64,000 nucleotides of DNA, taken from assembly GCF_025770725.1 (NCBI RefSeq), contig NZ_JANZKZ010000001.1, forward strand, positions 248,001 through 312,000, written 5' to 3'. Every line of letters starts with the position of its first letter. The first letter of the stretch is position 1. Source of the stretch: Sulfurospirillum oryzae. Its GTDB lineage: Bacteria > Campylobacterota > Campylobacteria > Campylobacterales > Sulfurospirillaceae. The notes below the pieces were generated by a model. It worked only from the letters and a program-made list of their open reading frames with translations. It did not search any database and was not told where the DNA came from. Positions 5,108 through 63,726 of the stretch are shown here, piece by piece. Position numbers and translations under genes: made by a program.

Positions 5108-5533
5108 CTCGTACAACAACCTTCTATGAAGAAATATGAGCAGGTGCGTTGCTATGACAGATTGCTCAGTTTGTTACCCAAAAGCTTCACAAGCATGATA
5201 CGCTTTGTGTACACCAAAAACGAAACGCTCTTTTTTGTACTCAATCATCCTTGCGCCAAAATGGAGTTTAATTATAAACGTAATTTAATAAAGAGTCTAT
5301 TAAAAGAACTTCTTGCCCATTTCCCAGAATGTTCATGTTTACATGTAAAAGAAGTTCAAGCCTTTGTCACCAATCAAAAAAGTGAAGAAGAAGCTTTGAT
5401 TGTCTCTGCCAATTCAGAAATTTTTTACCCAGAACAAGCTAGCGGAGCCTTTGAAACACTGTGCGAAGATGAAAAACTACGTTCCCTTTTTGAAGCGATT
5501 AAAGAGACCATTGCCAAAAACCGATCATGCTAG
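5078..5533 (+). CDS. DUF721/DciA-like small protein
   Basis: A 151-residue cytosolic protein without membrane segments. The central part, TLFFVLNHPCAKMEFNYKRN followed by LIKSLLKELL, resembles the DUF721 (DciA-like) core, where a short strand, a proline-containing turn and an 'EL.Y....L...L' helix recur; DciA loads replicative helicase in many bacteria. The match is weak. Its end overlaps uvrC by 7 bases, so the two are cotranscribed. The exact palindrome at 5338-5349 is read as Leu-His-Val-Lys. The start is uncertain: the ATG at 5078 has no ribosome site, and the ATG at 5126 is an alternative. Confidence 0.7.
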   Translation: MKDSKSIISHLVQQPSMKKYEQVRCYDRLLSLLPKSFTSMIRFVYTKNETLFFVLNHPCAKMEFNYKRNLIKSLLKELLAHFPECSCLHVKEVQAFVTNQKSEEEALIVSANSEIFYPEQASGAFETLCEDEKLRSLFEAIKETIAKNRSC

Positions 5534-7326
5534 CCCAAAAACTTAAAAACGCGCCGCACAATGCGGGCATTTATCAATACTTTAATGCGCAGGGAATGCT
5601 TTTGTATGTCGGCAAAGCCAAAAGCATTAAAAATCGTGTCAAGAGTTATTTTCGCTTTTCTGGTGAACTAAGTGCCGCTCCCAATCTTTCACCTCGCATT
5701 GCAAAAATGATCAGTGAAGTTGACAATGTCGAGTATATTGTCGTGCAAAGTGAACATGACGCACTCATTTTAGAAAACTCTCTGATTAAACAGCTCAAGC
5801 CCAAATATAATATTCTTCTAAGAGATGATAAAACCTACCCTTACATTGCCATCAATCTTTCTGAACCTTTCCCTCGTTTTGAGATCACACGTAAAATTGT
5901 CAATGACAAGCATATCAAATATTTTGGCCCGCTCTCAGGTTCTGCCAAAGCGCTTTTAGAAGCACTCTATTTGGCTTTTCCTTTAGTTCAAAAAAGAGGA
6001 TGTTTAAAAGGTAAAAAAGCGTGCCTTTTTCACCAAATCCATCGTTGTTTAGCGCCATGTGAACAAAAAGTTGACATGGTGACTTATGCCAAAATCGTGC
6101 AAGAAGCATTGGAGTCTTTAAACGATCAAAAAAAGCTCGTGAATCTTTTACATGTAAAGATGGAAGAGGCATCCATGAAGCTCAATTTTGAAGAGGCAGC
6201 CAAACTTCGTGACATTATAAACTCTATCAAAGACGCTTTACATGTAACTCATGTGGAGCTTTCAAAACTCGAAGATTACGATGTTTTTGCGGTTGAGATC
6301 ATGGAAAAGGTGGCGGTGGTGATGCGTCTTTTTATCCGTGAAGGCAAAATCGTTTCAACCTCTCATACGCTGATGCACAACGCCTACGGTTTTGAAAAAG
6401 ATGAGCTTTATCAACGTTCTCTTTTTGAGTTTTACAACCCTATGAATCAAACGTTTGCCAAGCAAATCCTCATTGCTGAATCCTTTAGTGAACAAGAAGA
6501 TATGGCTCAATTTTTAAGTGAAAAATTTGGACAAAAAATCACCATTAGCGCACCGCAAAGAGGTGAAAAACTGCATCTAATATCCATTGCTCATGAAAAT
6601 GCTAAAACACTTTTACTGCAAAATATTACGAAAAACCCAACAACATTACCAGAGCAAATTCAAAAACTTTTTGATCTGATTTCACTTCCTAAACGCATTG
6701 AAATCTTTGATAATTCCCATCTTGGAGGTAAATCTCCCGTGGGTGGTATGGTGGTATGGGATGATGGATTTGATAAGTCAAGTTACCGCCGTTATGAACT
6801 CCACCATGAAGATGAATACGCACAAATGAAAGAGATGTTAGAGCGCCGTATTAATGATTTTTCCAAAGAATCGCCCCCTGATCTTTGGGTACTTGATGGT
6901 GGTGAAACGATTCTTAAACTTGCCAAAAGTTTGCTCGCTCAAAAAGGTTTGTATGTCGATTTACTTGCCATTGCCAAAGAAAAGCGAGATGCCAAAGCGC
7001 ACCGTGCAAAAGGGAGTGCGCACGACCTTCTCTACAACCAAAACCAATCGTTTCATCTGCCACCAAGTGATAAGCGTTTGCAGTTTATTCAAAGACTTCG
7101 CGATGAAGCACACCGCTTTGCCATCACCTATCACCAGAAGAAAAAACGAGGTCGTGATATGAGTTTAGAACTTCTAAAAATCGAAGGAATAGGTACCGCA
7201 ACTATCAAAAAACTGCTACTTTATTTTGGGACATTTGAAGCTATTTACAACGCAGAGCAGGAAGAACTAGAGGTAACCATTGGTAAAAAGGTCGGTGCCA
7301 ATCTATTTCATTGCTTAAGAAAGTAG
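5527..7326 (+). CDS. uvrC: UvrABC nuclease subunit C
   Basis: Dual-incision nuclease of nucleotide excision repair. The 599 residues are normal. Residues about 10-90 form the GIY-YIG domain (NAGIYQYFNAQGMLLYVGKA) that makes the 3' cut. A UVR helix pair (KMEEASMKLNFEEAAKLRD, about 205-225) contacts UvrB. The RNase H-like domain begins IEIFDNSHLGG and makes the 5' cut, and a helix-hairpin-helix (IEGIGTATIKKLLLYFG) ends the protein. One exact palindrome (6147-6158, LHVK) and one near copy (6237-6248, LHVT) lie 90 bases apart inside it. uvrA lies elsewhere in this window at 43121-45940. Confidence 0.98.
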   Translation: MLAQKLKNAPHNAGIYQYFNAQGMLLYVGKAKSIKNRVKSYFRFSGELSAAPNLSPRIAKMISEVDNVEYIVVQSEHDALILENSLIKQLKPKYNILLRDDKTYPYIAINLSEPFPRFEITRKIVNDKHIKYFGPLSGSAKALLEALYLAFPLVQKRGCLKGKKACLFHQIHRCLAPCEQKVDMVTYAKIVQEALESLNDQKKLVNLLHVKMEEASMKLNFEEAAKLRDIINSIKDALHVTHVELSKLEDYDVFAVEIMEKVAVVMRLFIREGKIVSTSHTLMHNAYGFEKDELYQRSLFEFYNPMNQTFAKQILIAESFSEQEDMAQFLSEKFGQKITISAPQRGEKLHLISIAHENAKTLLLQNITKNPTTLPEQIQKLFDLISLPKRIEIFDNSHLGGKSPVGGMVVWDDGFDKSSYRRYELHHEDEYAQMKEMLERRINDFSKESPPDLWVLDGGETILKLAKSLLAQKGLYVDLLAIAKEKRDAKAHRAKGSAHDLLYNQNQSFHLPPSDKRLQFIQRLRDEAHRFAITYHQKKKRGRDMSLELLKIEGIGTATIKKLLLYFGTFEAIYNAEQEELEVTIGKKVGANLFHCLRK

Positions 7327-19457: not shown

Positions 19458-20978
19458 TTGATATTTCAAGACCAATACCAACAACAACGTATCGAAAAGG
19501 GAAAAGCGCTCCATGCGCTTGGTCGCAACCCTTATAGGCACAATATTATCAAAGATACTAGCACGAAAGAATTTCTTGAGTGTTATGAATATGTCATTGA
19601 GAGTGAACTCAAACGTGATGAACATAAAAACAACACGGTTGTAGGTCGTATCAAATTTTTGCGTCACATGGGCAAAGCTGCTTTTGCAAAAATCGAAGAT
19701 GAGCAAGGATTATTACAAATTTATTTTAGTCGTGAATCTATCGGTGAAGAGTGGTTTGAAGAAGCCAAAAGACTGGTTGAAGTGGGTGATATTATTAGCG
19801 TAACAGGCTTTCCTTTCGTTACTAAAACAGGTGAACTTTCTTTACATGTAAAAGCCTTAGAGGTTGCCACAAAGTCTATTGTTCCATTGCCTGAAAAGTT
19901 CCATGGTCTTCAAGATAAAGAGCTTCGTTACCGCAAACGCTACCTCGATATGATTATGAATAGCGATGTGCGCAGAACGTTTAAAATCAGAAGTAAAATC
20001 GTGAGCGAAATTCGTCACTTCTTTGAAGAGAGAGACTTTTTAGAGGTCGAAACACCGATGATGCACCCCATTGCTGGAGGCGCAAATGCTAAACCATTTG
20101 TAACACACCACAATGCACTTGGTATTGATCGTTATCTCCGTATTGCACCTGAACTTTACCTCAAACGCCTTGTTGTCGGCGGTTTTGAAGCTGTTTTTGA
20201 AATCAACCGTAACTTTAGAAATGAAGGTATGGATCAAACCCATAACCCTGAATTTACGATGATCGAATTTTACTGGGCATACCATAATTACCATGATTTG
20301 ATGCATTTAACCGAAGAGATGTTCGATGTATTGCTTAAAAAACTCAAACTTCCACGTAAACTTCCTTATGGTGAAATGGAGATTGATTTTTCAAAACCAT
20401 TCCGCAAAATTGCCTTTAGAGCAGCCCTCAGTGAAATTGGTGGCGTTCCTGATGAGATTTTAGATAATCGTGCTCAAATTATCAAGTATATTACCGACAA
20501 AGGCTTGAACGTTGAAGCAAACCTTAGTCTTGGTAAACTCTATGAAGAACTGTTTGATCTTTTTGTCGAAGAGAAACTTATCAATCCTACCTTTATTATT
20601 GATTACCCTATTGAAATTAGTCCACTCGCTCGTAGAAGTGAAGAAAATCCAAACATTGCAGAGCGCTTTGAGCTCTTCATTGCGGGGCGAGAGATCGCCA
20701 ATGGATTTAATGAACTCAATGATCCTCTGGATCAATACGAACGATTTGCAAAACAGTTGCAAGCTAAAAATGCAGGTGATGATGAAGCCCATGAGATGGA
20801 TGAAGATTACGTCTACGCTCTAGGCTATGGCTTGCCACCAACAGCGGGACAAGGACTAGGAATTGATCGTTTGACGATGCTTTTAACCAATGAGCAATCG
20901 ATCAAAGATGTTATTCTTTTCCCAGCGATGAAACCGCTGAATGACAATGATGAACAAACACAAAAAGATGAGGAATAA
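19458..20978 (+). CDS. lysS: Lysyl-tRNA synthetase, class II
   Basis: Charges tRNA(Lys). About 506 residues: an OB-fold anticodon domain near the N terminus ([20 protein letters not shown]), class II motif 2 with [20 protein letters not shown] and motif 3 [12 protein letters not shown] place the start at the TTG at 19458, just after the fur stop, because GAGGACGAG lies upstream and the protein then begins [20 protein letters not shown] like its relatives; a start inside fur at 19407 is unlikely. An exact palindrome (19841-19852) is read as LHVK. glyA follows after two bases. Confidence 0.97.
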
Positions 20979-20980
20979 AA

Positions 20981-22228
20981 ATGAGTATTTTAAAAACTGT
21001 TGACCCTGTTGTTTATGACTTAACCGTAAAAGAGTTGCACCGCCAATGTGACCATTTGGAAATGATTGCCAGTGAAAATTTTACCTACCCCGCTGTTATG
21101 GAAGCAATGGGAAGTGTCTTTACAAACAAATACGCTGAGGGTTATCCAGGTAAACGCTACTACGGTGGTTGTGAATTTGCGGACGCTGTTGAGCAACTTG
21201 CGATTGACAGAGTCTGTAAACTTTTCGGATGTACCTATGCCAATGTTCAACCAAACTCCGGTAGCCAAGCCAATCAAGGTGTTTACCAAGCCCTTCTTAA
21301 TCCTTATGACAAAATTTTAGGTATGGATTTAAGCCACGGTGGTCACTTAACGCACGGTGCCAAAGTGAGTAGTTCAGGTAAAACCTATTCAAGTTTCTTC
21401 TATGGTGTTGAGCTTGATGGTCGCATTAATTATGACAAAGTAAGAGAAATTGCCAATATCGTTAAACCTAAAATGATCGTGTGTGGCGCAAGTGCATACC
21501 CAAGAGAGATTGATTTTGCAAAATTTAGAGAGATCGCAGACGAAGTGGGCGCTTACCTTTTTGCTGACATCGCACATATTGCTGGTTTAGTCGCAGGTGG
21601 TGAGCATCCAAGTCCATTCCCTCACTGTCATGTGGTTAGTTCGACAACACACAAAACGCTTCGCGGCGCACGTGGCGGTATTATCCTTACCAATGACGAA
21701 GAGATCGCTAAAAAAGTCAATAGCGCGATCTTCCCAGGAATTCAAGGTGGTCCATTAGTACACGTCATTGCAGCCAAAGCGGTTGGTTTTGCAGAAAACT
21801 TGAAACCTGAGTGGACAACGTATGCAAAACAAGTACGTGCCAATGCTAAAGTTTTGGCAGATGTTCTCATCAAACGTGGCTATGACATCGTGAGTGGTGG
21901 CACAGACAACCATCTTGTTCTTGTCTCTTTCTTGAACAAAGAATTTAGCGGTAAAGAGGCTGACCTTGCTCTTGGTCGCGCAGGTATTACGGTCAATAAA
22001 AACACCGTTCCTGGCGAAACACGAAGCCCTTTTGTCACCAGTGGTGTTCGCATTGGCTCACCCGCACTTACAGCGCGTGGTATGAAAGAGAAAGAGTTTG
22101 AAATTATTGCGAATAAAATCGCTGATGTGTTAGACAATATCAACGATGAAGCTTTACATGTAAAGATCAAAGATGAGATGAAAGCGCTAGCAAGCAACTT
22201 CATCATCTATGACAGACCAACCTACTAA
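20981..22228 (+). CDS. glyA: Serine hydroxymethyltransferase
   Basis: PLP enzyme interconverting serine and glycine and feeding one-carbon units to folate. The 415 residues include [15 protein letters not shown], the substrate loop YPGKRYYGG, the PLP-lysine region [13 protein letters not shown] and [10 protein letters not shown]. Two bases separate it from lysS and 8 from the DUF1882 gene. An exact palindrome at 22153-22164 near the 3' end is read as LHVK in a surface-like helix. Confidence 0.98.
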
Positions 22229-25779: not shown

Positions 25780-27420
25780 GTGCAGCTCGAAAAAACACTG
25801 GGTAACCCTTATGCGCATGATTATCAACTCCTCATTAAAAATATTCTAAACGCTCCCATCTATTTTGATCCGAACCAAGAGATCGTTTACCGTGGCGAAA
25901 AACGTTTCACCTATGCTACTTTTAAAAAACGTGTTCACAGACTTGCCAATATGCTAACCTCTTTAGGGGTTAAAGCTGGCGATACGGTCGCTGTCATGGA
26001 TTATGATTCGCATCGCTATTTAGAGTGCTATTTCGCCATTCCCATGTTAGGAGCGGTGCTTCATACCATCAACATTCGCCTCTCGCCTGAACAGATTCTC
26101 TACACCATTGACCATGCAGAAGATGATGTTATCTTAGCGCATACCGATTTGTTACCTGTCCTTGAGCAGATCAAAGGAAGGCTTGATGTGGAGAGTTTTA
26201 TCGTTTTATCGGATGATGAAAAAATACCTCCAACCTCTTTACATGTAAAAGGGGAATACGAAGCGCTTCTTTCACAACAGAGTGATTTTTTCGACTTCCC
26301 AGACTTTAATGAAAACACGCGTGCAACGACTTTTTACACCACAGGAACAACCGGTCTTCCTAAAGGCGTTTACTTTACCCATCGCCAACTGGTTCTTCAC
26401 ACATTAGGCGTACTCGCAACACTTGGCAGTGCCCCAAGGCAAGGCAATTTTCAACAAAATGACGTTTATATGCCCATCACGCCAATGTTTCATGTCCATG
26501 CGTGGGGACTCCCTTATGTTGCAACGATGCTAGGTGTCAAGCAAGTTTACCCAGGGCGATATATGCCAGACCTCTTATTAGAACTTATCGACAAAGAAAA
26601 GGTCACCTTCTCGCACTGTGTTCCAACCATCATGCACATGCTCTTTAATTCCCCCAAAATAAATGAAGTCAATCTCAAAGGATGGAAAGTTATTATCGGA
26701 GGAGCGGCACTTCCAAAAGCGATGTGTAAAGAGGCTCTTAAAAGAGGGATTGATATGTTCACAGGGTATGGCATGAGTGAGACCTGCCCAATTTTGAGCC
26801 TTGCACAGCTTACACCTGATATGCTTGAGCTAGATTGCGATGCACAAAGCGACATCCGCATTAAGACAGGTCGTCCTATGGGGCTTGTTGAAATGCAAAT
26901 CGTAGACGAGCAAATGACACCTCTTCCAAGAGATGGCATCAGCACAGGTGAGATTGTTGTACGTTCTCCATGGCTAACACAAGGCTATTTCAAAGACCAA
27001 AAAAATTCTGAGATACTTTGGCATGGAGGGTATCTGCATACGGGAGATATGGCAAATGTCGATGAAAAAGGCTATATCAAGATCACCGATCGCGTCAAAG
27101 ACATCATCAAAGTGGGTGGTGAATGGGTTTCATCTTTGGAGCTCGAAGATATTATTAACCAACATCCGCATGTCAAAGAAGTTGCCGTCATTGGCGTGGA
27201 AGATGATAAATGGGGTGAGAGACCACTCGCCCTTGTTGTTCTTGATGCCAATAGCACCGTCAGCGATAAAGAGATACTTCTCCATGCCAAAGAGTTCATC
27301 AAAAAAGGCATTATGGCACGTGAAGGTATGCTACTCAAAGTAAAATTTGTTGAAAGTATTGATAAAACCAGTGTTGGGAAGGTTGATAAGAAAGAGCTAC
27401 GTAAAAAATATAGTCTCTAA
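25780..27420 (+). CDS. Acyl-CoA synthetase (AMP-forming), AlkK-like
   Basis: A 546-residue acid:CoA ligase of the ANL superfamily. Motifs are the P-loop TFYTTGTTGLPKGVYF, GYGMSETCPILS, LHTGDMANVDEKGYIKITDR and the C-terminal lysine region SVGKVDKKELRKKY. The sequence pattern is that of the medium/long-chain fatty acid ligase group; the exact substrate cannot be read. The start is GTG, with GGAGAG upstream. An exact palindrome (26238-26249) is read as LHVK. A 32-bp palindrome follows the stop. Confidence 0.88.
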   Translation: MQLEKTLGNPYAHDYQLLIKNILNAPIYFDPNQEIVYRGEKRFTYATFKKRVHRLANMLTSLGVKAGDTVAVMDYDSHRYLECYFAIPMLGAVLHTINIRLSPEQILYTIDHAEDDVILAHTDLLPVLEQIKGRLDVESFIVLSDDEKIPPTSLHVKGEYEALLSQQSDFFDFPDFNENTRATTFYTTGTTGLPKGVYFTHRQLVLHTLGVLATLGSAPRQGNFQQNDVYMPITPMFHVHAWGLPYVATMLGVKQVYPGRYMPDLLLELIDKEKVTFSHCVPTIMHMLFNSPKINEVNLKGWKVIIGGAALPKAMCKEALKRGIDMFTGYGMSETCPILSLAQLTPDMLELDCDAQSDIRIKTGRPMGLVEMQIVDEQMTPLPRDGISTGEIVVRSPWLTQGYFKDQKNSEILWHGGYLHTGDMANVDEKGYIKITDRVKDIIKVGGEWVSSLELEDIINQHPHVKEVAVIGVEDDKWGERPLALVVLDANSTVSDKEILLHAKEFIKKGIMAREGMLLKVKFVESIDKTSVGKVDKKELRKKYSL

Positions 27421-27424
27421 AAGA

Positions 27425-27456
27425 AAGAAAGATATTTACATGTAAATATCTTTCTT
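27425..27456. repeat. 32-bp perfect palindrome centred on TTTACATGTAAA
   Basis: Five bases after the acyl-CoA ligase stop, a gapless perfect palindrome of 16-base arms (left arm AAGAAAGATATTTACA) surrounds an exact copy of the recurrent 12-mer at 27435-27446. As RNA it could fold into a long hairpin ending transcription of the upstream gene, but no T-tract follows. The rest of the gap to 27645 holds only a possible short hydrophobic reading frame. Confidence 0.85.
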
Positions 27457-35996: not shown

Positions 35997-36536
35997 CTAA
36001 AAAAACAAAATTCTAAATCCTATTGCTACTAAAACAACGCCACCAAAAATTTCTGCTTTGCTCTCTAACCATGTTCCAGTCAATTTTCCAACATAAACAC
36101 CGATAAAACTGATGATAAATGTTGTCAAGCCGATGATACCACAGGCGAGCAAAGGATTAAGCGGTAAAAGCATCAAACTAAAGCCTGCCGCCATGGCATC
36201 AATGCTTGTAGCAATAGCAAGGGTAAGCATGATCTTATTGGTAATCTTCGCTATTTCCTCTTCAACGCCCTCATTGACCCCTTCATAAATCATCTTCGCC
36301 CCAATAAGAAGCAGAAGTCCAAAAGCAATATACGATGCATAACTGCTCACAAATCCAAGCACGCCTTTTCCACCCAAATAACCAATAAGTGGCATTATGG
36401 CTTGAAACACGCCAAAGAAAAGCCCTGCTTTAAGCGCAAGCGATCTATACTCACTGTTCTGCTTAGCGCCAAGACCAATGGAAACCGCAAAAGCATCCAT
36501 GCTCAACGCAAATGCCAATAGCAATACTTCTATCAT
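35997..36536 (-). CDS. mntP: Manganese efflux pump MntP
   Basis: A six-helix inner-membrane exporter of 179 residues with two half-repeats: [20 protein letters not shown] and [20 protein letters not shown], each with the conserved Asp in a helix. I place the start at 36536, where ATGA overlaps the polA stop; an ATG at 36551 would add five residues. It protects against manganese excess. No yybP-ykoY riboswitch is visible, and the position inside polA's message suggests constitutive expression. Confidence 0.93.
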
Positions 36537-39190
36537 TTTAATTCGCCCCAATTATTGCCTATGGCAATGGAAACTTTTAAAGGTACTTTGAGTGTGTATA
36601 TCTCTTCCATCACTTTTTGTGCCTGTATCGCAAAGCTTTCTGCCCTCTCCTCTTTCACTTCAAAAATAAGCTCATCGTGAATTTGAAGCAACAATTTTGC
36701 TTCATCATCCACAAGCGTCGTCATAATTTTATTCATCGCAAGTTTGATAAGATCGGCGGCACTGCCTTGAAAAACGGTATTGACCGCTTCACGAAGGTAG
36801 CCAGCGTATTGCATAGCATTGGCATGTTCAAAGTCAAAAAAGCGCTTTCGCCCCAGCAACGTCTGAACATAACCCTCTTTTTTAGCACTCTCCGCTACTG
36901 ATGTGAGGTAGTTTTTAATGGTAGGAAACGTCGCAAAATAGCTCTCAATATAACTCTTTGCCTCTTTGGTTGTGATCCCAATTGTTTCTGACAAACGTTT
37001 GGGTCCCATACCATAAAGAAGACCAAAGTTAATGCTTTTAGCCACACCGCGTTTGGCTGCCGCTTCCTCTTCACCAAAAAGCTTCAGCGCTGTTTCTTTA
37101 TGGATATCTTTGCCAGCTTGAAATGCATGCACCATTGCTTCATCACCACTAAAATGCGCCAAAAGCCTGAGCTCGATTTGTGAGTAGTCGATGCCGATGA
37201 GTTTATAGCCCTCTTTTGCCACAAAACCACCGCGTACTTCGCGTCCCAACTCTGTTTTTACAGGGATATTTTGAAGATTTGGGTCTTTGGAACTGAGCCT
37301 TCCTGTGGAAGTTCCCGTTTGCATAAACGACGTATGAACGCGTCCCAATGGAGACTCTTTTGAGAGTTTAAGCAATGGCTCAATGTAGGTTGAACGAAGC
37401 TTATACAGCTCTCTGTACTCCAAAATTTTGGCGATGCTTGGGTGCTTATCTAAAAGCTCATTGAGGACATTTTCATCCGTGCTGTACCCTGTTTTCGTTT
37501 TTTTAACCGTAGGAAGACCTAATTGTTCAAAAAGCACATTGCCTAGTTGTTGCGTTGAGTTTAGATTAAAGGTTGCATCACACAGCGTAAATATCTCTGC
37601 TTTCAGCGCTTCAATAGCTAGATCGGTGCGTTTTAAAAGCTTTTCAAAATAAGCACCATCAATTTGTATGCCCTCTTTTTCCATCTTCATGAGTGTCTTA
37701 ATGAAAGGAAACTCCACCTCTTTGGCAAGATCGAGCAAGTGAGGGTCTAACATCTCATGCAGTTTATGGTAGAGTCTGAGCGTCATCCATGCATCTTCGC
37801 TCGCATATTCACACGCTTTTTCCAATGGCACATTACTAAAGTTTTCGCCTTTTTGCACCACGTCTTTAAACTTGACCATTGCGTGATTAAAAAAGCGTAA
37901 AGCAAGGGTATCAAGCCCCACGCTCGTTTCAGGATTGAGAAGCCATGCAAGAAGCATTGTATCGGCATAAATGTTGACATCTTTTAGACCAAAATTGTTT
38001 TCAATCACAGCAAGGTCAAATTTGAGGTTTTGCCCCACAATTTTATGTTTAAAAAGCTCTTCCAACGCGTGCTTTGCATCCGTAAGACTGATCTGATCAC
38101 CAACGCCCAAATAGTGATGCGCTATAGGTACATAGTACGCTTCCTCTGCGTTTATGGCAAAGGAGAAACCTACGATCTTGGCATTATACGCATCCAAAGC
38201 GTTAGTTTCGGTATCAAACGCAACAATGGCGTCCTCTTCAATGCCTTCAATGATGTTAAAAAGCATCTTGGTATCATCGAGCAATATCGCTTTAAACCTA
38301 TTGCTTGGCGTCTCTTTTGGCTTTACATGTAAAGACTCATTTTTCACACGAGAGAGTATATGGCGTAGCTCGTACTTCTCCAATTCATCGACGATGTTGA
38401 TAAGAGGATTGTTGCAAGGAAAATGAAATGACTCAAATTTATCGGCGATGATCAGTGAATCGTCCAAACGCACCAACTGCTTGCTCAAAAAAGCTTTTTC
38501 TCTGCCTTCTTCTAGCATGCTTTGCACACGTGGGTTTGAGACACGCTCTAAGTTTGCATAGACATTTTCAACACTGCCAAAATCATCCAAAAGCTTTTTA
38601 GCACCCTTTGGACCAATGCCTTTAACACCTGGGATATTATCGGCAACATCTCCAACCAAGGAAAGATACTCATTAATTTTATTGGGATATACGCCAAATT
38701 TTTCAAAACACTTTTCGGTATCTATCTCTATTTTTTTCATCGGATCATAAATGACCACTCTACCATCATCAATGAGCTGGTAAAGATCTTTATCGTGCGT
38801 CACAATGCGTACTTTTATATCATGGCTTTTAGCAAAAGCAACCGCAGATGCGATGACATCATCCGCTTCAAACCCCTCTTCGCTGTAAAATTTAAAGCCC
38901 ATTTTCTCAATCCATGAAACGGCCACAGGTAATTGGCGTTTAAGATCTTCGGGAGCTTCAGGACGGTTGGCTTTATAATTTGGATCAATCGTATGGCGAA
39001 AGTTTTTACCTTTACTATCCAGTGCAAACATCAAATAGTCTGTGTCATGTTCATTTTTAATCGCATAGATAAAATTGGCAAATCCTGTCAAAAGCCCTGT
39101 GGGAAACCCTTGGGAATTGCGAAGTTGCGGAAGTGCATAGTAATTTCTAAAAAAAAAGCCAAAAGTATCAATGATAGTAAGTGTTTTCAC
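36533..39190 (-). CDS. polA: DNA polymerase I
   Basis: An 885-residue repair and Okazaki-processing polymerase. The N-terminal 5' nuclease starts [20 protein letters not shown]. The 3'-5' exonuclease keeps its acidic residues ([25 protein letters not shown]). Polymerase motifs A ([16 protein letters not shown]), B ([17 protein letters not shown]) and C ([11 protein letters not shown]) are intact. Start is GTG at 39190; its ribosome site AAAGG is the tail of a near palindrome at 39200-39211. An exact palindrome (38322-38333) is read as LHVK between the nuclease and exonuclease domains. Confidence 0.98.
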
Positions 39191-39213
39191 AAAAGCGCCT
39201 TTACATGTAAGGG

Positions 39214-43057: not shown

Positions 43058-43069
43058 TTTACATGTAAA
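43058..43069. repeat. Intergenic TTTACATGTAAA copy
   Basis: Exact 12-mer in the 128-base gap between the uvrA stop (43121) and the symporter start (42992). A partial copy (TTCATGTAAAA) begins about 31 bases further along, so a decayed second copy is possible. No terminator for uvrA is evident here. Confidence 0.85.
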
Positions 43070-43120: not shown

Positions 43121-45940
43121 CTACTTCTTCTTTTCTGACTCTAACTCTAAGGCTAAAAATTTACCTGTGTAACTTCCATTTTTCTCTGCTTTTTCTGCAA
43201 CCTCTAAAGGCGTTCCAACTGCGATAATACGCCCTCCGTAGCTACCACCATCGGGTCCCATGTCGATCATATAGTCTGCATTTTTGATGACATCCATGTT
43301 ATGTTCAATGACCAAAACACTGTTACCCATATCTGTGAGATGGTGTAACACTTTTACCAGTCTGTCCACATCGGCGAAATGTAACCCTGTCGTTGGTTCA
43401 TCCAAAACATAGAGGGTATTGCCTGTATCTTTTTTGCTCAGTTCTTTTGCAAGCTTAATACGCTGTGCCTCGCCGCCACTTAACGTCACCGCATTTTGAC
43501 CTAGCGTTATATACCCCAAACCAACATCAACAAGCGTTTGTACTTTTTGATGAATTTTAGGAATAGCTTTGAAAAATTCAAAAGCCTCATCAACACTCAT
43601 ATTTAAAACATCAGAGATGGACTTTCCTTTGTATTTGATCTCTAAAGTTTGCGCGTTATAGCGATGCCCTTTACAACTGTCGCATTTGACCATGATGTCA
43701 GGCAAAAAGTGCATTTCTATCTTAATCTCACCATCGCCCTGACACTTCTCACAACGACCACCTTTGACGTTAAAGGAGAAACGACCAACGCTGTAACCCC
43801 TTATTTGCGCCTCTTTGGTTTTAGCAAATAAAGCTCTTATCTCATCCATTACACCTGTGTATGTCGCAGGATTTGAACGGGGTGTTCTTCCTATCGGGCT
43901 TTGATCAAGGTAAATTACTTTATCAAGCTGGTCAAGTCCTATGCACTCTACACCTGCTACTTTGTTGACCTTTTTCGCACGGTTAAGGTACTCTTTTGCC
44001 ACAGGAAGAAGGGTTTGAAGAATGAGTGAACTCTTACCACTGCCACTCACACCCGTAATCGCGACAAGATTTCCCAGAGGGATTTTCACATCAAGGTTTT
44101 GAATATTGTTAATCGAAACATTGTTTAGTTCTATCCATCGGTCTTGTTTTCTATTTTCACGATAATCAATCACTTTACTACCATTAAGGTACTGAGCCGT
44201 CAACGTATTGCTTTTTAAAAGCTCTTCATTCGTACCTTTAAAAACAATCTCTCCACCGAACTTTCCAGCACCTGGTCCTATGTCGACAATAAAATCTGCT
44301 GTTTTGATGGTCTCTTTGTCGTGTTCAACAACAATAACCGAATTGCCTTTTTTCTGTAAGTTGCGCAACGTTCGGATGAGTTTGAGGGTATCCCTCTCAT
44401 GCAAACCGATGCTTGGCTCATCTAAAACATACATAACCCCCGTGAGCCCACTGCCAATTTGCGAAGCAATACGAATACGTTGTGCCTCGCCACCACTAAT
44501 GGTTCTCGCATCGCGTCCTAAACTAATATAGCCAAGTCCCACATCAAAAAGGAAGAAAAGACGTTCTTTGATCTCTTTTAAAATAGGCTCCGAGATCATT
44601 TTGTGTTGTGATTTCATCGAAGCAAAATTCTTTTCATCTTGGAAAAAGGCAAGACACTGATCGATGGGAAGTTCTAAAATATCGGCGATATTTTTCTTCG
44701 CCAAACGAACCGCCAAACTCTCTTTTTTCAGACGATACCCACCACACGTGTCGCACGTCTTTTCGCTCATATAATCACCCAGCTCTTTTTCATCTTTGAG
44801 CATATCATAGGCAATTTTAATGACACCATCCCATTTGCGGGTGAGTTTATGTTTTTTCCAAAAGAAAGTCGCCTCTTCAACGCCACCATGCAAAATGGAT
44901 TTTTGTTGATACTCTTCAAGTTCCTCATACGGAATGCGTGTATTAATACCCGCGGCTTCGCAGTAGGCTGTTAAAAACTTCGCATAAAAGCTTTTGTTAA
45001 AGCCATAAAAGATTTTAATAGCGCCCTCATCAATACTTACATGCTCATTGATGATTTTTTTAAGATCAAGTGTATAGCGAATGCCCAAACCATCACACGT
45101 TGGACATGCACCTTTGGGTGAGTTAAATGAAAAGGAGAGCGGCTCTAACGGCTCAAAGCTGATCTTACAGTCAAAGCAGGCTAAATGCTCGCTGTAATGA
45201 ATGTGAGAAGTAGGAAGCCCTACTTCTTCGGCATTGGAGATGTCAAGCTCCACTTCGCCATAGCTCTCTAAAAGTGCTTTTTCGATGTCGGTTGCTATAC
45301 GCTCTTTATTCTCTTCACGAACCACCACACGGTCAATAATAACTTTAATGGTATGTTTTTTGGTTTTTGAAAGCTCTATTTCCTCATCTAAACGTACCAT
45401 AACACCATCGACTAAAGCACGGACATAGCCTTTATGTCGCAATGATTCGATCATGTCGGCAAAACTACCTTTTTTCTCACGTACCAGAGGGGCGAGGATG
45501 GAAAGTTTGGTTTCAGGAGGCAGTTTTAAAACCTGCTCAATAATGTCAGCCACCGACATCTGTGAAATCTCTTTACCGCACAGATGACAATGCTGTTTTC
45601 CTACACGTGCGTAAAGCAGACGCAAATAGTCATAAATCTCAGTAATCGTTCCCACCGTAGAGCGTGGGTTTTTACTCGTTGTTTTTTGATCAATCGCAAT
45701 GGCAGGTGTTAGCCCTTCGATTTTTTCAACATCGGGCTTACCGACACGATCCAAAAACTGTCTTGCATACGAAGAGAGAGACTCGATGTAACGGCGTTGT
45801 CCTTCAGCATACAATGTATCAAACGCTAGTGTACTTTTACCACTTCCACTAAGGCCTGTAAAGACAACAAGCTTGTTTTTTGGAATTTCTAAATTAATAT
45901 TTTTAAGATTATTCTCTTTAGCACCGTAAATTTTGATCAT
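43121..45940 (-). CDS. uvrA: UvrABC damage-recognition ATPase
   Basis: A 939-residue ABC-type ATPase that finds DNA lesions and loads UvrB. It has two Walker A loops (FTGLSGSGKSTLAFDTLY and ITGVSGSGKSSLILQTLL), ABC signatures (TISGGEAQRIRIASQIG, TLSGGEAQRIKLAKEL), Walker B (VLDEPSIGLHERD, VLDEPTTGLHFADV) and zinc Cys pairs (CHLCGKEI, CEKCQGDGEI, CDSCKGHRY). ATGA overlap with the TSUP exporter gene upstream. No SOS box was recognised. Confidence 0.98.
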   Translation of the reverse strand: MIKIYGAKENNLKNINLEIPKNKLVVFTGLSGSGKSTLAFDTLYAEGQRRYIESLSSYARQFLDRVGKPDVEKIEGLTPAIAIDQKTTSKNPRSTVGTITEIYDYLRLLYARVGKQHCHLCGKEISQMSVADIIEQVLKLPPETKLSILAPLVREKKGSFADMIESLRHKGYVRALVDGVMVRLDEEIELSKTKKHTIKVIIDRVVVREENKERIATDIEKALLESYGEVELDISNAEEVGLPTSHIHYSEHLACFDCKISFEPLEPLSFSFNSPKGACPTCDGLGIRYTLDLKKIINEHVSIDEGAIKIFYGFNKSFYAKFLTAYCEAAGINTRIPYEELEEYQQKSILHGGVEEATFFWKKHKLTRKWDGVIKIAYDMLKDEKELGDYMSEKTCDTCGGYRLKKESLAVRLAKKNIADILELPIDQCLAFFQDEKNFASMKSQHKMISEPILKEIKERLFFLFDVGLGYISLGRDARTISGGEAQRIRIASQIGSGLTGVMYVLDEPSIGLHERDTLKLIRTLRNLQKKGNSVIVVEHDKETIKTADFIVDIGPGAGKFGGEIVFKGTNEELLKSNTLTAQYLNGSKVIDYRENRKQDRWIELNNVSINNIQNLDVKIPLGNLVAITGVSGSGKSSLILQTLLPVAKEYLNRAKKVNKVAGVECIGLDQLDKVIYLDQSPIGRTPRSNPATYTGVMDEIRALFAKTKEAQIRGYSVGRFSFNVKGGRCEKCQGDGEIKIEMHFLPDIMVKCDSCKGHRYNAQTLEIKYKGKSISDVLNMSVDEAFEFFKAIPKIHQKVQTLVDVGLGYITLGQNAVTLSGGEAQRIKLAKELSKKDTGNTLYVLDEPTTGLHFADVDRLVKVLHHLTDMGNSVLVIEHNMDVIKNADYMIDMGPDGGSYGGRIIAVGTPLEVAEKAEKNGSYTGKFLALELESEKKK

Positions 45941-46695
45941 AGGATATTTAACTCACTTAAAATTTTATTGACTGTTAATACAAACATAACGACATACAAG
46001 ATCAAAAGGGCTCGTTTTTGCACCTTTTTCTCAACACGATGGGCTAACTTAACCCCAAAATAGACACCAATTAAAGAGCCTATACCCACAGCCACACCTG
46101 CATTGTAATCAACTAAACCATTGGCAGAAAGGCTGATAAAACCAGAAATTGAGCCAAAAATGATAAAAAAGAGCGTGGTTCCAACCGCTTTTTTAATATC
46201 CCAGTTCATAAAACCAACCAGTACAGGTGTCAAAAAGATAGCGCCACCGGTTCCTGTACTAATCGCAATCGCACCGATGACCACACCCACAACAAAAAGT
46301 AAAAGTTTTGACTCATTGGGTGTACTTTTAGGCTCTATAGGCGCTGTAAAAAATTTATAAATAGACATCGAAAGAATAGCGGCAAAAAGAATTAAAAGTG
46401 CCATTTGAGGTAATGCTTTGACGATAAACCCACTAAGTGCCGCGCCAAAAAGTGCGCCAAACCCTAGGAAAATTCCACTGTTTAGTTGAAGAACGCCGGC
46501 CTTATAGTTCACATACGAGCCAAACATCGAGCTAAAAATCATCTGCATCACAGAAATTCCGATTGCCATTTTAATGTCATAACCAAAATAGATCAAAGCA
46601 GGTACAAGAATCGTTCCTCCACCGATGCCAAAGAAACCAGAAGAAAATCCTACTAAGATACCGAAAAATGCAAGACCCACTAACATATATGCCAA
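45937..46695 (-). CDS. TSUP (TauE/SafE-like) anion exporter
   Basis: A 252-residue inner-membrane protein with about eight segments in two halves: GFSSGFFGIGGGTILVPALI near the N terminus and GAIAISTGTGGAIFLTPVLV in the second half, typical of the TSUP family that exports sulfite, sulfonates or other sulfur compounds. The substrate is unknown; the sulfite dehydrogenase in this window makes sulfite plausible, though it is not linked. It overlaps uvrA by 4 bases. Confidence 0.87.
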   Translation of the reverse strand: MAYMLVGLAFFGILVGFSSGFFGIGGGTILVPALIYFGYDIKMAIGISVMQMIFSSMFGSYVNYKAGVLQLNSGIFLGFGALFGAALSGFIVKALPQMALLILFAAILSMSIYKFFTAPIEPKSTPNESKLLLFVVGVVIGAIAISTGTGGAIFLTPVLVGFMNWDIKKAVGTTLFFIIFGSISGFISLSANGLVDYNAGVAVGIGSLIGVYFGVKLAHRVEKKVQKRALLILYVVMFVLTVNKILSELNIL

Positions 46696-46772: not shown

Positions 46773-46808
46773 CGTCTTTACATGTAAAAGGTTTTACATG
46801 TAAAGACG
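46773..46808. repeat. Hairpin made of two TTTACATGTAAA copies
   Basis: Two exact 12-mers (46777-46788 and 46793-46804) sit four bases apart and are extended outward by complementary flanks, giving a perfect 17-bp inverted repeat (46773-46789 and 46792-46808) with a 2-base gap. It starts 6 bases after the APC permease stop, a terminator-like place, but has no T-tract. Paired uptake sequences form such structures in Neisseria and Pasteurellaceae. Confidence 0.9.
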
Positions 46809-46814
46809 GGGGTA

Positions 46815-48152
46815 TTATTTACGAGAGAGTTTGTACCCAATGGCAAGGAGCACGAGCCATGCTGGAATGAGATAAACAGAGATGTTAATGCCATCAATAA
46901 AAAGCATAACGATCAAAATCATTGCAAAGAATAGAATACAGATAATGTTACCCACAGGAAACCAAAACGCTTTAAATTTAGGCTCTATCCCCTCTTTGAT
47001 TTTGGCATAGCGAAATTTGAGGTGTGCAAACGTAATCATAAACCAGTTAACCATCAGTGCTGAAACAACCAATGCCATCAAAAATTGAAACGCACCTTCT
47101 GGCATAAAATAATTGAGCGCAACACATGTACCCGTGATAAGTGCTGAGAAAAGCACCGCATTGACAGGAACACCTTTGCTGTTTAGGCTCATCATTATTT
47201 TAGGTGCATTGCCTTGTACTGCCAAACCAAACAACATACGTGAATTGGAGTAAACACCACTGTTATAAACCGAAAGTGCCGCTGTTAAAACGATGGCATT
47301 AAGCACATGCGCAATAAAGTTTTGATTTAAACTACTAAAAACCATAACAAATGGCGTTACCTCTTTGGTCATCTGCATCCACGGCATTAAGGAAAGAAGA
47401 ACTGCCAATGCGCCGATGTAAAAAATGAGGATTCGGTAGATGACTTGATTGGTCGCACGTGGAATCGTATGACTTGGATCATCCGTCTCAGCCGCCGCAA
47501 TACCAATAAGCTCAAGTCCACCAAAAGAGAACATGATGAACACCATCGCCATCAAAAAGCCTTTGATACCATGTGGAAAAAATCCACCCTCTAACGCCCA
47601 AAGGTTGCTAAAATGGGCATTTTCACCGCCATTTCCGCTGATGAGCAAATAACTACCAAACGTAATCATCGCAATGATCGCCGCTACTTTGATGATGGAG
47701 AACCAAAACTCAAACTCACCATAAATGCGAACATTGACTAAATTGACAAGATTGACCAAGACAAAGAAAAATGCCGCTGATGCCCATGTTGGGATATTTG
47801 GAAGCCAAAAATGCACAAATGTGCCAATGGCGGTGAGTTCTGCCATACCCACTAAAACATAGAGTATCCAGTAGTTCCAGCCTGATGCAAAACCCGCAAA
47901 TGGATGCCAGTATTTGTTTGCAAAATGGCTAAATGAACCAGCAACTGGTTCTTCTACGACCATTTCTCCTAGTTGACGCATAATCATAAATGCAATAAAT
48001 CCACCAAGCGCATACCCTAAAAGTACCGCTGGACCTGTCATTTGAACAGTTGTAGAAACGCCTAAAAAAAGACCTGTTCCAATAGCCCCGCCCAATGCTA
48101 TAAGCTGGACGTGTCTATTTTTCAAGCCTCGTGAAAGCCCTTTTGTGTGCAT
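46815..48152 (-). CDS. APC-family amino acid permease
   Basis: A 445-residue, 12-segment permease. The N-terminal signature GLKNRHVQLIALGGAIGTGL FLG and later GLELIGIAAAETDDPSHTIP belong to the amino acid transporter family of GABA, proline, lysine and aromatic amino acid permeases of enteric bacteria. The substrate is not determinable. AAAGGA precedes the ATG. An exact palindrome lies 83 bases upstream (48235-48246), and a paired-copy hairpin follows the stop. Confidence 0.9.
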   Translation of the reverse strand: MHTKGLSRGLKNRHVQLIALGGAIGTGLFLGVSTTVQMTGPAVLLGYALGGFIAFMIMRQLGEMVVEEPVAGSFSHFANKYWHPFAGFASGWNYWILYVLVGMAELTAIGTFVHFWLPNIPTWASAAFFFVLVNLVNLVNVRIYGEFEFWFSIIKVAAIIAMITFGSYLLISGNGGENAHFSNLWALEGGFFPHGIKGFLMAMVFIMFSFGGLELIGIAAAETDDPSHTIPRATNQVIYRILIFYIGALAVLLSLMPWMQMTKEVTPFVMVFSSLNQNFIAHVLNAIVLTAALSVYNSGVYSNSRMLFGLAVQGNAPKIMMSLNSKGVPVNAVLFSALITGTCVALNYFMPEGAFQFLMALVVSALMVNWFMITFAHLKFRYAKIKEGIEPKFKAFWFPVGNIICILFFAMILIVMLFIDGINISVYLIPAWLVLLAIGYKLSRK

Positions 48153-48234: not shown

Positions 48235-48246
48235 TTTACATGTAAA
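48235..48246. repeat. Intergenic TTTACATGTAAA copy
   Basis: Exact 12-mer in the 205-base divergent region between the APC permease and the CheX-like gene, flanked by GTTT and AAAG. The rest of the region is AT-rich with the -10 box for the CheX-like gene. Confidence 0.85.
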
Positions 48247-48317: not shown

Positions 48318-48323
48318 TATAAT
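48318..48323 (+). promoter_or_regulatory. -10 box of the CheX-like gene
   Basis: Perfect TATAAT 34 bases before the ATG at 48358; AAGAGGA follows as ribosome site. Confidence 0.6.
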
Positions 48324-48357
48324 GTTCTTAAATCGCATATCTAATAAGAGGAATAGC

Positions 48358-48774
48358 ATGAAAAACGCTGTTATTGAGGCAACTGAAAATTTCTGCTCAA
48401 CGATTTTATGTGAACTTCCACAACTTGTTGAAAATTTTGGCAAAGAATTTTACGGCTCGGCGATTTCACTGATTGAAAATGAGTGTGAACACACATGGTA
48501 TCTGCTTTTTGAAAAAAGTGCCCTTAATGAAATTGCTAAAAATCTCCTCTTTGAAGACAACCTTTGTGAAGACGATTTGGATGATCTTTTAAAAGAAATT
48601 TCCAATCAAATCATCGGTTCTGCCAAAGTGATCTTAGAAGCGAAAAATCCTCACATCGACTACCACCTCAACGTCCCTGAATTCATGGGCAATGTATCGG
48701 CTCCTTTTCCTATTTCATTTCAAGAAACCTTCCCTTACCAAGTCAAAAACAGTACCTTTATCATCGGCAGATAA
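48358..48774 (+). CDS. CheX/CheC-like protein
   Basis: A 138-residue cytosolic protein. The helix DLDDLLKEISNQIIGSAKVI contains the E-x-x-N-x-x-x-G pattern of the CheC/CheX/FliY phosphatase-related family, with a second sheet region after it. Only one such motif is seen, as in CheX. It may dephosphorylate CheY or another receiver. The ATG at 48358 has AAGAGGA upstream; an upstream ATG at 48322 lies inside the promoter. It stands alone before the thiC leader. Confidence 0.7.
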   Translation: MKNAVIEATENFCSTILCELPQLVENFGKEFYGSAISLIENECEHTWYLLFEKSALNEIAKNLLFEDNLCEDDLDDLLKEISNQIIGSAKVILEAKNPHIDYHLNVPEFMGNVSAPFPISFQETFPYQVKNSTFIIGR

Positions 48775-51446: not shown

Positions 51447-51458
51447 TTTACATGTAAA
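51447..51458. repeat. Intergenic TTTACATGTAAA copy
   Basis: Exact 12-mer in the 63-base gap between two converging genes (stops at 51400 and 51464), where a terminator would be expected. A weak TTGTCA/TGACAA stem lies near 51404-51426; no other terminator is seen. Confidence 0.85.
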
Positions 51459-51463
51459 GCTTT

Positions 51464-51946
51464 TCACTTCACCCCATGATGCGGATTATCGCCTGTTCGC
51501 TCTACCAATTCGTCCATATTTTCCCCACCGATAAAATACGCTTTGCCAAACCCAAATGTCGCTTCGCCGTAATTCACTTTGAACTCGTAGAGATTAAAGT
51601 CCGTCATTTTTTTAAGGGTTGCAACCATCTTAACATCAAACTTTTTGGCAAAGAGTTCTAAGACCGTTTCAAAACGCTCGCATCCTCGTTCAATTTTTTG
51701 GCTATTGCATTGCAAACTGACGCGTTTTCGTGCAAAAAGATTGTCTGTTTTACTCTCATCTTCAACAAAAAAGAGTGAAGCTCTAGGATCTTTTTGAATG
51801 TTTTTAGCGTGTGTTGCAATGTCTGAGATATAAACGTAAAAACGGTTTGCATCGTAAATGTAAGGCGCGTAAGAACTAAAAGGATGGCTGTTTTTATCGA
51901 GTGTGCCGATGATGGCGGTTTGAATGGTTGCTATAAAATCTTTCAT
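51464..51946 (-). CDS. Short HugZ-like FMN-split-barrel protein
   Basis: A 160-residue split-barrel protein of the pyridoxamine 5'-phosphate oxidase-like superfamily. SSYAPYIYDANRFYVYISDI, DPRASLFFVEDE, ARKRVSLQC and GFGKAYFIGG follow the pattern of Helicobacter HugZ/Campylobacter ChuZ heme oxygenases, and the tail GDNPHHGVK has a histidine pair. It lacks the N-terminal domain of those 250-residue enzymes. Heme degradation or general pyridoxal/flavin binding are both possible. Confidence 0.7.
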   Translation of the reverse strand: MKDFIATIQTAIIGTLDKNSHPFSSYAPYIYDANRFYVYISDIATHAKNIQKDPRASLFFVEDESKTDNLFARKRVSLQCNSQKIERGCERFETVLELFAKKFDVKMVATLKKMTDFNLYEFKVNYGEATFGFGKAYFIGGENMDELVERTGDNPHHGVK

Positions 51947-59265: not shown

Positions 59266-60197
59266 GCAAAAAAAGTAGCTATCGTTTCACGCATTAGCGC
59301 ATCATCTTCAATGCGGTTAATTTTATCTCTAAACTCAGATGCCTCGCGAAATCCTTTTGAGTACGTGTGTAAATGCTTACGAAAAATTGAGTGTCCTTTC
59401 TCGCCATAAAAATCGACCATAGCATCGAAATGCTCTAGCACAATCTCCAAGATTTTTGTTTTTTCAACATGAACTAACTCATTTTTAATCTGATAAAAAA
59501 TCCATGGATTTCCCACTGCACCTCGCCCTATCATCAAGCTTTTACACCCTGTCACCTCTTTTACATGTAAAGCTTTTTCATAGCTTGTGATGTCACCGTT
59601 GGCAATAACGGGAATGCTAACAGCCGCACGCGCTCTTGCAATCGCATGGTAATCAACTTCAGCTTTGTAAGCCCCTGCACGAGTCCTGCCGTGCATACTC
59701 ATAAAATCAACGCCTGCGCTTTCACACGCTTTAGCAATCTCTTCAGGAATTTTGGTACTAAACCCAAGACGCACTTTAGCGCTGGTATAGCGTTTATTTG
59801 AATAGGTTTTTATTGTCTCAATGATCTTCTGCATGTGCGGCAAGTTTAATAAAAGTGACGAGCCTGCCTCTTGCGAAATGATTTTTGGCACAGGGCAGCC
59901 ACAGTTCAGATCGATCCCATCAATCCCTTCAATGTCATTCAGAGCTAAAACAGCCTCTTTAATTGACACCAAATCAGATCCTGCAATTTGAACAATGTAG
60001 GGTGTTTCTCGCGGAGATTTGGTAAGCATCTTGAAGGTTTTCTCAGAGCCATAACGCAGAGCATTTGCACTAATCATTTCTGAAAAGGTAACATCTGCGC
60101 CAAACTTTTTAACAACGGAACGAAAAGGGAGGTCTGTAAAGCCAGCAAGAGGAGCGAGGGCTAGGATGCCTCGCTCAAAGTCTATCTCATGATTCAT
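59259..60197 (-). CDS. dus: tRNA-dihydrouridine synthase
   Basis: FMN enzyme reducing uridines in tRNA D-loops. The 312 residues show LAPLAGFTDLPFRSVVKKFG, the active-site cysteine region GIDLNCGCPVPKI, FMSMHGRTRAGAYKAEVDY and VIANGDITSYEKAL. It is most like the DusB group. An exact palindrome (59560-59571) is read as LHVK right after NGDITSYEKA. It starts by ATGA overlap with the membrane protein gene. Confidence 0.94.
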   Translation of the reverse strand: MNHEIDFERGILALAPLAGFTDLPFRSVVKKFGADVTFSEMISANALRYGSEKTFKMLTKSPRETPYIVQIAGSDLVSIKEAVLALNDIEGIDGIDLNCGCPVPKIISQEAGSSLLLNLPHMQKIIETIKTYSNKRYTSAKVRLGFSTKIPEEIAKACESAGVDFMSMHGRTRAGAYKAEVDYHAIARARAAVSIPVIANGDITSYEKALHVKEVTGCKSLMIGRGAVGNPWIFYQIKNELVHVEKTKILEIVLEHFDAMVDFYGEKGHSIFRKHLHTYSKGFREASEFRDKINRIEDDALMRETIATFFAQ

Positions 60198-62985: not shown

Positions 62986-63726
62986 CTAATTGCTTATAAA
63001 TAAACTTTTTATTTTATCAAAAATTTCCTTATCTTTGCTTACGAGGAAGATATCACTCTCATAAAAGGTATGAAGATCTGCACACATGAAGAGTCCCGCT
63101 TCGACATCATAAGTGCGCATAACACCTTCATACAAAACAAACGAAACATCGTGTGCATAGGCTAAAGAGAGTGCAAAAGCACCAGGAGAGCGGTACTTAA
63201 TATGAGCACTTTGAAGCTTGTCGTGCGCGTGTACTGAACAGTAAGAACGCTCAAAAATTCCCACTTTTGAAAAGGTGTTACATGTAACCAAATTAAATGA
63301 ATTTTTTCCTATTTTTCCTTGGCGCAAACCGTTTTCATCTTTGATAAAAACATCGCCATTGGCTAAGTTTGTAATCATCGCTTTTGTGCATTGATTGTTT
63401 TCAAAATAAGCAATGGAGGTACCAAAGAAAGGAAGATGCGAAAGCAGATTATCACTGCCATCAATGGGGTCAAGGACAATGCGAGCAGAGGTATTGGGGC
63501 TTTGTATCACCCCACTCTCCTCAGAGACGATCTCGCCAAAAGGCAAAAGGTGTTTAATGAAAATCTGTTCAGCCTCAAGATCAATTCCAGAGCTACGATC
63601 TCCCCCCGCTCCAATGTCGAAGGATTGGTGAGCAGACTCATCCAACCCTTTTACATGTAAAAGCTCAGATACCTCAAGATTCGCTCTGAGTGCGGCTTCA
63701 ATAAAGCTCACGAAAGGCTTATCCAA
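62986..63726 (-). CDS. Inositol monophosphatase family protein
   Basis: A 246-residue metal-dependent phosphatase: EIVSEESGV, the metal site LDPIDGSDNLLSHLPFFG and the C-terminal acidic segment TYDVEAGLFMCADL. It may act on inositol phosphate, 3'-phosphoadenosine phosphate (CysQ) or fructose bisphosphate; the sequence does not decide. Overlaps the gltD end by 8 bases. It holds an exact palindrome (63650-63661, LHVK) and a double-variant one (63277-63288, VTCN). Confidence 0.87.
   Translation of the reverse strand: MDKPFVSFIEAALRANLEVSELLHVKGLDESAHQSFDIGAGGDRSSGIDLEAEQIFIKHLLPFGEIVSEESGVIQSPNTSARIVLDPIDGSDNLLSHLPFFGTSIAYFENNQCTKAMITNLANGDVFIKDENGLRQGKIGKNSFNLVTCNTFSKVGIFERSYCSVHAHDKLQSAHIKYRSPGAFALSLAYAHDVSFVLYEGVMRTYDVEAGLFMCADLHTFYESDIFLVSKDKEIFDKIKSLFISN

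Follow-up and report, generated by a model that had tools for sequence, protein, structure and literature searches.

A covarying gene-end hairpin built from two copies of an iterated palindromic word in Sulfurospirillum

The locus under study lies in a 64,000-nucleotide stretch of the Sulfurospirillum oryzae genome, referred to here as the window, between two co-directional genes on the minus strand. The upstream gene (46815-48152) encodes a 445-residue amino-acid permease that matches Pfam AA_permease. The nearest NCBIfam model is AroP, although the protein scores under the AroP cut-off, and its closest copies among named relatives are from Sulfurospirillum. The downstream gene (45937-46695) encodes, by family match, a TauE/SafE (TSUP) family permease. 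Between them, at 46773-46808 on the minus strand, is a perfect 36-base inverted repeat. Its 17-nt arms (46773-46789 and 46792-46808) are 100% complementary and flank a 2-nt centre. The repeat contains two exact copies of a 12-letter word, TTTACATGTAAA, located 4 nt apart at 46777-46788 and 46793-46804, with the core sequence TTACATGTAA at 46778-46787 and 46794-46803. Read along the minus strand, the repeat begins 6 nt after the permease stop codon (TAA, 46817-46815). Both the 17-bp arrangement of the two copies and its distance from the stop codon agree with a preliminary description of this sequence. Because the word is a palindrome, two nearby copies automatically constitute an inverted repeat.

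The transcribed strand of this repeat is predicted to fold with an energy of -21.4 kcal/mol (z = -10.7 relative to shuffled sequences). As in a rho-independent terminator, a stable hairpin is found right after the stop codon, and its stem covaries. Unlike such a terminator, the stem is A/T-rich, and no U-tract, the other feature of an intrinsic terminator, is present 3' of the stem in the transcribed direction, where the minus-strand tail reads ACUUCCCUUGC. A terminator scan returned a sole candidate at the hairpin, on the plus strand. A terminator role is plausible at this site, although the transcribed direction lacks a U-tract.

The hairpin recurs at orthologous loci, where its flanks are altered yet still match. 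In an alignment of 11 orthologous sequences, 94% of the stem cells are paired, and changes on both sides are found in 6 of 16 pairs. Doubly changed stem cells number 13, whereas shuffled alignments give 3.7 and controls with a slid stem give 0-1. Word copy 1 is retained in the relatives G155 and G152 and is gone in G116 and G078. In G078 and G116, the word is lost but a hairpin still stands at the permease end (CTCTTTGCAT...ATGCAAAGAG and CACTCTTTGCA...TGCAAAGAGTG). It takes the form TTTGCA..TGCAAA, in which an A-U pair of the word core has been converted to G-C by changes on both sides. The persistence of a hairpin with paired changes in genomes that have lost the word indicates that the RNA fold is retained for its own sake, so that hairpin and word can be told apart in function. 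The transporter gene ends in a conserved RNA structure, which we read as the probable 3' end of the permease transcript. At the permease ends of G150 and G065, no word pair is found, and other hairpins are predicted there.

The core, TTACATGTAA, is a perfect 10-letter palindrome that occurs 1056 times in the 2.63 Mb genome, whereas its reversed control occurs 3 times. The 12-mer TTTACATGTAAA occurs 549 times (reversed control, 0), including 19 copies in the window, where 0.01 are expected. Genes were called by a simple ORF-based method, and positional statistics were gathered over 452 kb of one contig and the loci around all 35 word pairs. The 452 kb contain 180 copies of TTACATGTAA versus 0.7-2.3 expected. 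These excesses and the reversed controls rule out chance or base composition as the origin of the word. One-letter variants in the same sequence number 51 versus 23 expected; because they are merely about twofold over expectation, the word is very sharp. The extended consensus, about 26 bp long, is symmetric in both coding and intergenic copies, with an A-rich left flank, YTTTACATGTAAAR and a T-rich right flank; a Y precedes TTTACATGTAAA and an R follows it.

Within the 452 kb, 65 of the 180 sites (36%) fall in the approximately 6% of sequence that is non-coding, at a median of 14 nt from a stop codon, and 46 of 171 free gene ends have a word copy. The other 115 sites (64%) are inside genes, where they translate as LHV(K/N/S) or (F/L/V)TCK. 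Spacing between sites is uneven (CV 1.24). A mobile element of the MITE or REP type is not favored, because 64% of the copies are genic and the short word alone is conserved. Site density is slightly lower in unaligned (accessory) sequence than in aligned sequence (0.37 versus 0.44 per kb, over 292 kb). One 30-kb segment of this genome, G000 (C1:12249-42027, L096-L098; GC 34.8%), is devoid of word copies; it contains an integrase-like ORF and ORFs resembling a type I restriction-modification set and is probably an acquired island.

Word copies are distributed along the window in genes and between them; their positions are given here without strand. A single copy of the 12-mer forms the centre of a longer dyad at 27435-27446, 15 nt past the stop codon of ORF 25780-27420. 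Intergenic core copies are found at 39201-39210, separating polA (36533-39190) from the following gene, retained in four relatives; at 43059-43068, downstream of uvrA (43121-45940, minus strand), retained in G155, G152 and G065; and at 48236-48245, between the permease and ORF 48322-48774. A further core copy (51448-51457) separates convergent genes and is 6 nt past the stop codon of ORF 51464-51946. The coding core copies at 228-237, 3920-3929, 4775-4784 and 5339-5348 are each retained in G155, G152, G065 and G157 and missing in G154, G164, G116 and G078, and those at 22154-22163, 59561-59570 and 63651-63660 are retained in G155, G152, G065 and G157 only. Another coding copy is located at 19842-19851. 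Two copies lie in uvrC (5527-7326), at 6148-6157 and 6238-6247, and one lies in polA, at 38323-38332. In the window, the repair genes uvrC and polA thus contain word copies, and uvrA has one close downstream.

The preliminary description would have been contradicted had there been no other word pairs, but others do exist. The genome contains 35 word pairs within 30 nt (reversed control, 0), and the 24 genomes of the genus that were compared contain 4-66 each. Its view of paired copies as gene-end hairpins also holds: 28 of the 35 pairs are intergenic, nearly all of them 2-16 nt past a stop codon and many between convergent genes. At least three additional stem pairs extend 22 of the 28 intergenic pairs, as compared to 1 of the 7 pairs inside genes. 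The number of pairs is in modest excess over chance when the clustering of sites at gene ends is allowed for (8 versus 3.2 +/- 1.6 in 452 kb). It is pair geometry, not pair number, that looks selected. Five identical 30-base hairpins, TTACATGTAAGGA-TTTT-TCCTTACATGTAA, occur on either strand at separate gene ends in G000 (C1:513215, C1:747650, C2:578880, C3:12792 and C3:46712), and near-identical hairpins are seen again in G150 and G151. The set has the look of a terminator cassette used repeatedly.

Conservation of the sites was examined in relatives with nucleotide identities to G000 of 82% (G155, G152 and G078), 83% (G116), 77% (G065) and 75% (G164 and G154). Orthologous sites are retained at 71 of 80 positions in G155, 58 of 67 in G152 and 54 of 67 in G065 (81-89%). 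Third codon positions within coding copies, where many changes would be synonymous, are 0.951, 0.943 and 0.885 identical in these three genomes, versus background third-position identities of 0.614, 0.605 and 0.555. This constraint argues against a genome-wide mutation bias as the source of the word. Except in a few lineages, Sulfurospirillum thus keeps about 1000 copies of the word in fixed positions, under much stricter conservation than the DNA around them. Retention falls to 6 of 80 sites in G078, 10 of 58 in G116, 8 of 56 in G164 and 17 of 68 in G154. In G078 and G116, third positions at former word sites are at background, although these genomes are no more distant than those that keep the word. 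In contrast, G157, which is as distant as G164 and G154, retains 42 of 60 sites, with third positions 0.860 identical versus a background of 0.519. Whole-genome counts follow the same division, with 49, 238, 412 and 411 copies in G078, G116, G164 and G154, respectively, versus 934-1496 in the keepers compared. No replacement "dialect" word stands out in the stretches of G078 and G116 examined, where the top 10-mer is still TTACATGTAA (6 and 13 copies). The four losers occupy separate places in a single-gene phylogeny based on UvrA. Because the sites are held in keepers but mostly gone in separate lineages, the simplest explanation implies a trans-acting reader of the word that would have been lost several times.

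Several candidates for this reader, or for the cause of its loss, were rejected. Every genome tested, word losers among them, has the ComEC and T2SSF families, which argues against loss of either ComEC or T2SSF as the cause of word loss; for the same reason, these families neither support nor exclude a role in uptake. A beta-class methyltransferase (PF01555) is missing from most word-rich genomes. Within an aligned region of approximately 200 kb, no gene is common to G155 and G065 yet missing in G078. Restriction avoidance does not account for the pattern, given that ACATGT outside the longer word occurs near expectation. A type II restriction-modification site is likewise rejected: TTACATGTAA is over-represented, and no restriction gene was recognized beside the D12-class methyltransferase gene described below.

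Our studies lead us to propose two layers of function, a proposal to which we give about an even chance of being correct. In the first, the hairpin would form a conserved structure at the 3' end of the permease transcript, acting as a terminator or a 3' stabilizer and built from two side-by-side word copies. In the second, TTACATGTAA would be an iterated genomic word shared across the genus, and a trans-acting reader specific for its sequence would hold it at its roughly 1000 fixed places; this reader would most likely be the DNA-uptake or self-recognition step of natural transformation. We infer that a single reader is involved, that uptake is its role and that the hairpin serves to terminate or protect the transcript. 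Such a word would resemble the DNA uptake sequences (DUS and USS) of other bacteria but be palindromic. Neisseria DUS occur at gene ends as inverted pairs with close spacing and are 97% conserved in surroundings that are approximately 85% conserved (PMC2397512). In Haemophilus influenzae, 35% of USS are in non-ORF sequence, which is similar to the approximately one-third of word sites that are intergenic here, and published uptake sequences are non-palindromic (PMC1939737). Like DUS and USS, the Sulfurospirillum word has hundreds to thousands of copies, is conserved above its surroundings, forms inverted pairs at gene ends and is flanked by A/T sequence. As for the scarcity in acquired DNA that is typical of DUS and USS, the 30-kb island has 0 copies, and unaligned sequence overall is slightly poorer. 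Unlike DUS and USS, the word is a perfect palindrome, and ComEC and T2SSF persist in genomes that have lost it. The word therefore appears to behave most like an uptake word, but we stop short of assigning it to that class. The preliminary description had recognized in this locus the terminator and uptake design of Neisseria and Haemophilus. That comparison is borne out by the gene-end hairpins, the covarying stem and the uptake-like abundance and conservation, but not by the missing U-tract, the palindromic word and competence genes that do not track it.

A possible, if rather unlikely, alternative is that the word serves methylation in the manner of HIP1. Within the word, a core such as CATG or ACATGT would be recognized by an orphan adenine methyltransferase of the D12 class or by a factor that reads its mark, and methylation-dependent repair, replication or recombination would keep the sites. 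HIP1 is also a perfect palindrome that runs through coding and non-coding DNA, is tied to orphan methyltransferases and is lost sporadically from lineages (PMC4390886). It differs from the Sulfurospirillum word in that it is another sequence (GCGATCGC) in another phylum (cyanobacteria); strong enrichment at gene ends and in hairpin pairs and an incomplete link to the methyltransferase, as in G157, set the Sulfurospirillum word apart. The candidate enzyme is 325 residues long (L289:8221-9198; G000:C3:196220-197194). Its neighbors are conserved in G155 and G152, and no restriction gene was recognized by inspection of the neighboring ORFs. The gene adjoins a CheY-like response regulator, and its product evolves faster (62-74% identity) than UvrA from the same genomes (94-97%). 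Homologs are present in 17 of 24 genomes, which have more sites than the remainder (Mann-Whitney p = 7e-4, not corrected for phylogeny); the genomes without one include G078, G116, G164 and G165. Distant phage homologs are annotated as "ulcer associated adenine specific DNA methyltransferase," a label also given to HpyIM of Helicobacter, an enzyme that methylates CATG. A CATG specificity would fit the CATG centre of the word and offers a lead. However, the enzyme is a correlated but imperfect candidate for the reader. G157 keeps its sites without a detectable D12 homolog, and so does the incomplete genome G161, in both cases at full density; G154 has a homolog (55% identity) in a different neighborhood and shows weak site constraint. 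In addition, G091 and G126 carry 283 and 86 copies of the 12-mer, respectively, and have no D12 homolog.

Methylation and uptake might also be combined, a reading that we regard as unlikely. The orphan adenine methyltransferase would place its mark at the centre of TTACATGTAA, and DNA with marked word copies would be imported by the competence machinery. This combination is suggested by Campylobacter jejuni, which takes up DNA with methylated RAATTY in a process involving CtsM (PMC8468864, there written RATTY). RAATTY resembles the Sulfurospirillum word in phylum, in being a palindrome and in a methylation-dependent self-recognition at uptake, and differs from it in being a short, common 6-mer; the system is not known to involve an iterated 10-bp word.

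A role in chromosome organization, in which a dimeric DNA-binding nucleoid protein would compact, segregate or occlude DNA by occupying the roughly 1000 symmetric sites, seems quite unlikely to us. The symmetric consensus, flanked left and right by A/T tracts, is what a homodimer would be expected to bind, and per-site conservation is consistent with such occupancy. This role would not, however, be expected to produce enrichment right after stop codons or hairpin pairing, and the spacing of the sites is uneven. Finally, a simple gene-end terminator repeat that spilled into genes, with no reader of a DNA word, could explain the gene-end enrichment, the hairpins and the recurring identical 30-mer, but is very improbable given the 115 of 180 sites that are genic and under extreme third-codon-position constraint and the G078 hairpin, which survives while the word decays, separating the two functions.

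A search of the open-access literature found no prior description of the word (by title and abstract, none of the 18 papers containing the letters TTACATGTAA dealt with Sulfurospirillum or an iterated word), no report of an uptake sequence in Sulfurospirillum and no iterated uptake word in Campylobacterota. How iterated palindromes such as HIP1 are maintained is a long-standing open question. In Sulfurospirillum, close relatives of similar divergence either hold the word in fixed positions or, in several lineages, have lost nearly all copies. Comparison of gene content should therefore be able to find the reader, and what the word does can be tested in free-living laboratory bacteria. If it is a true uptake word, iterated uptake words extend to another phylum and can be symmetric. 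If it is a methylation-licensed uptake word, a single system would unite HIP-type and DUS-type words, and its repeated natural losses would serve as controls.

The word also appears in another family of the order. G126 stands apart from other members of its genus, which have 0-2 copies of TTTACATGTAAA, and its genome contains extra T2SSF genes (10 matches).
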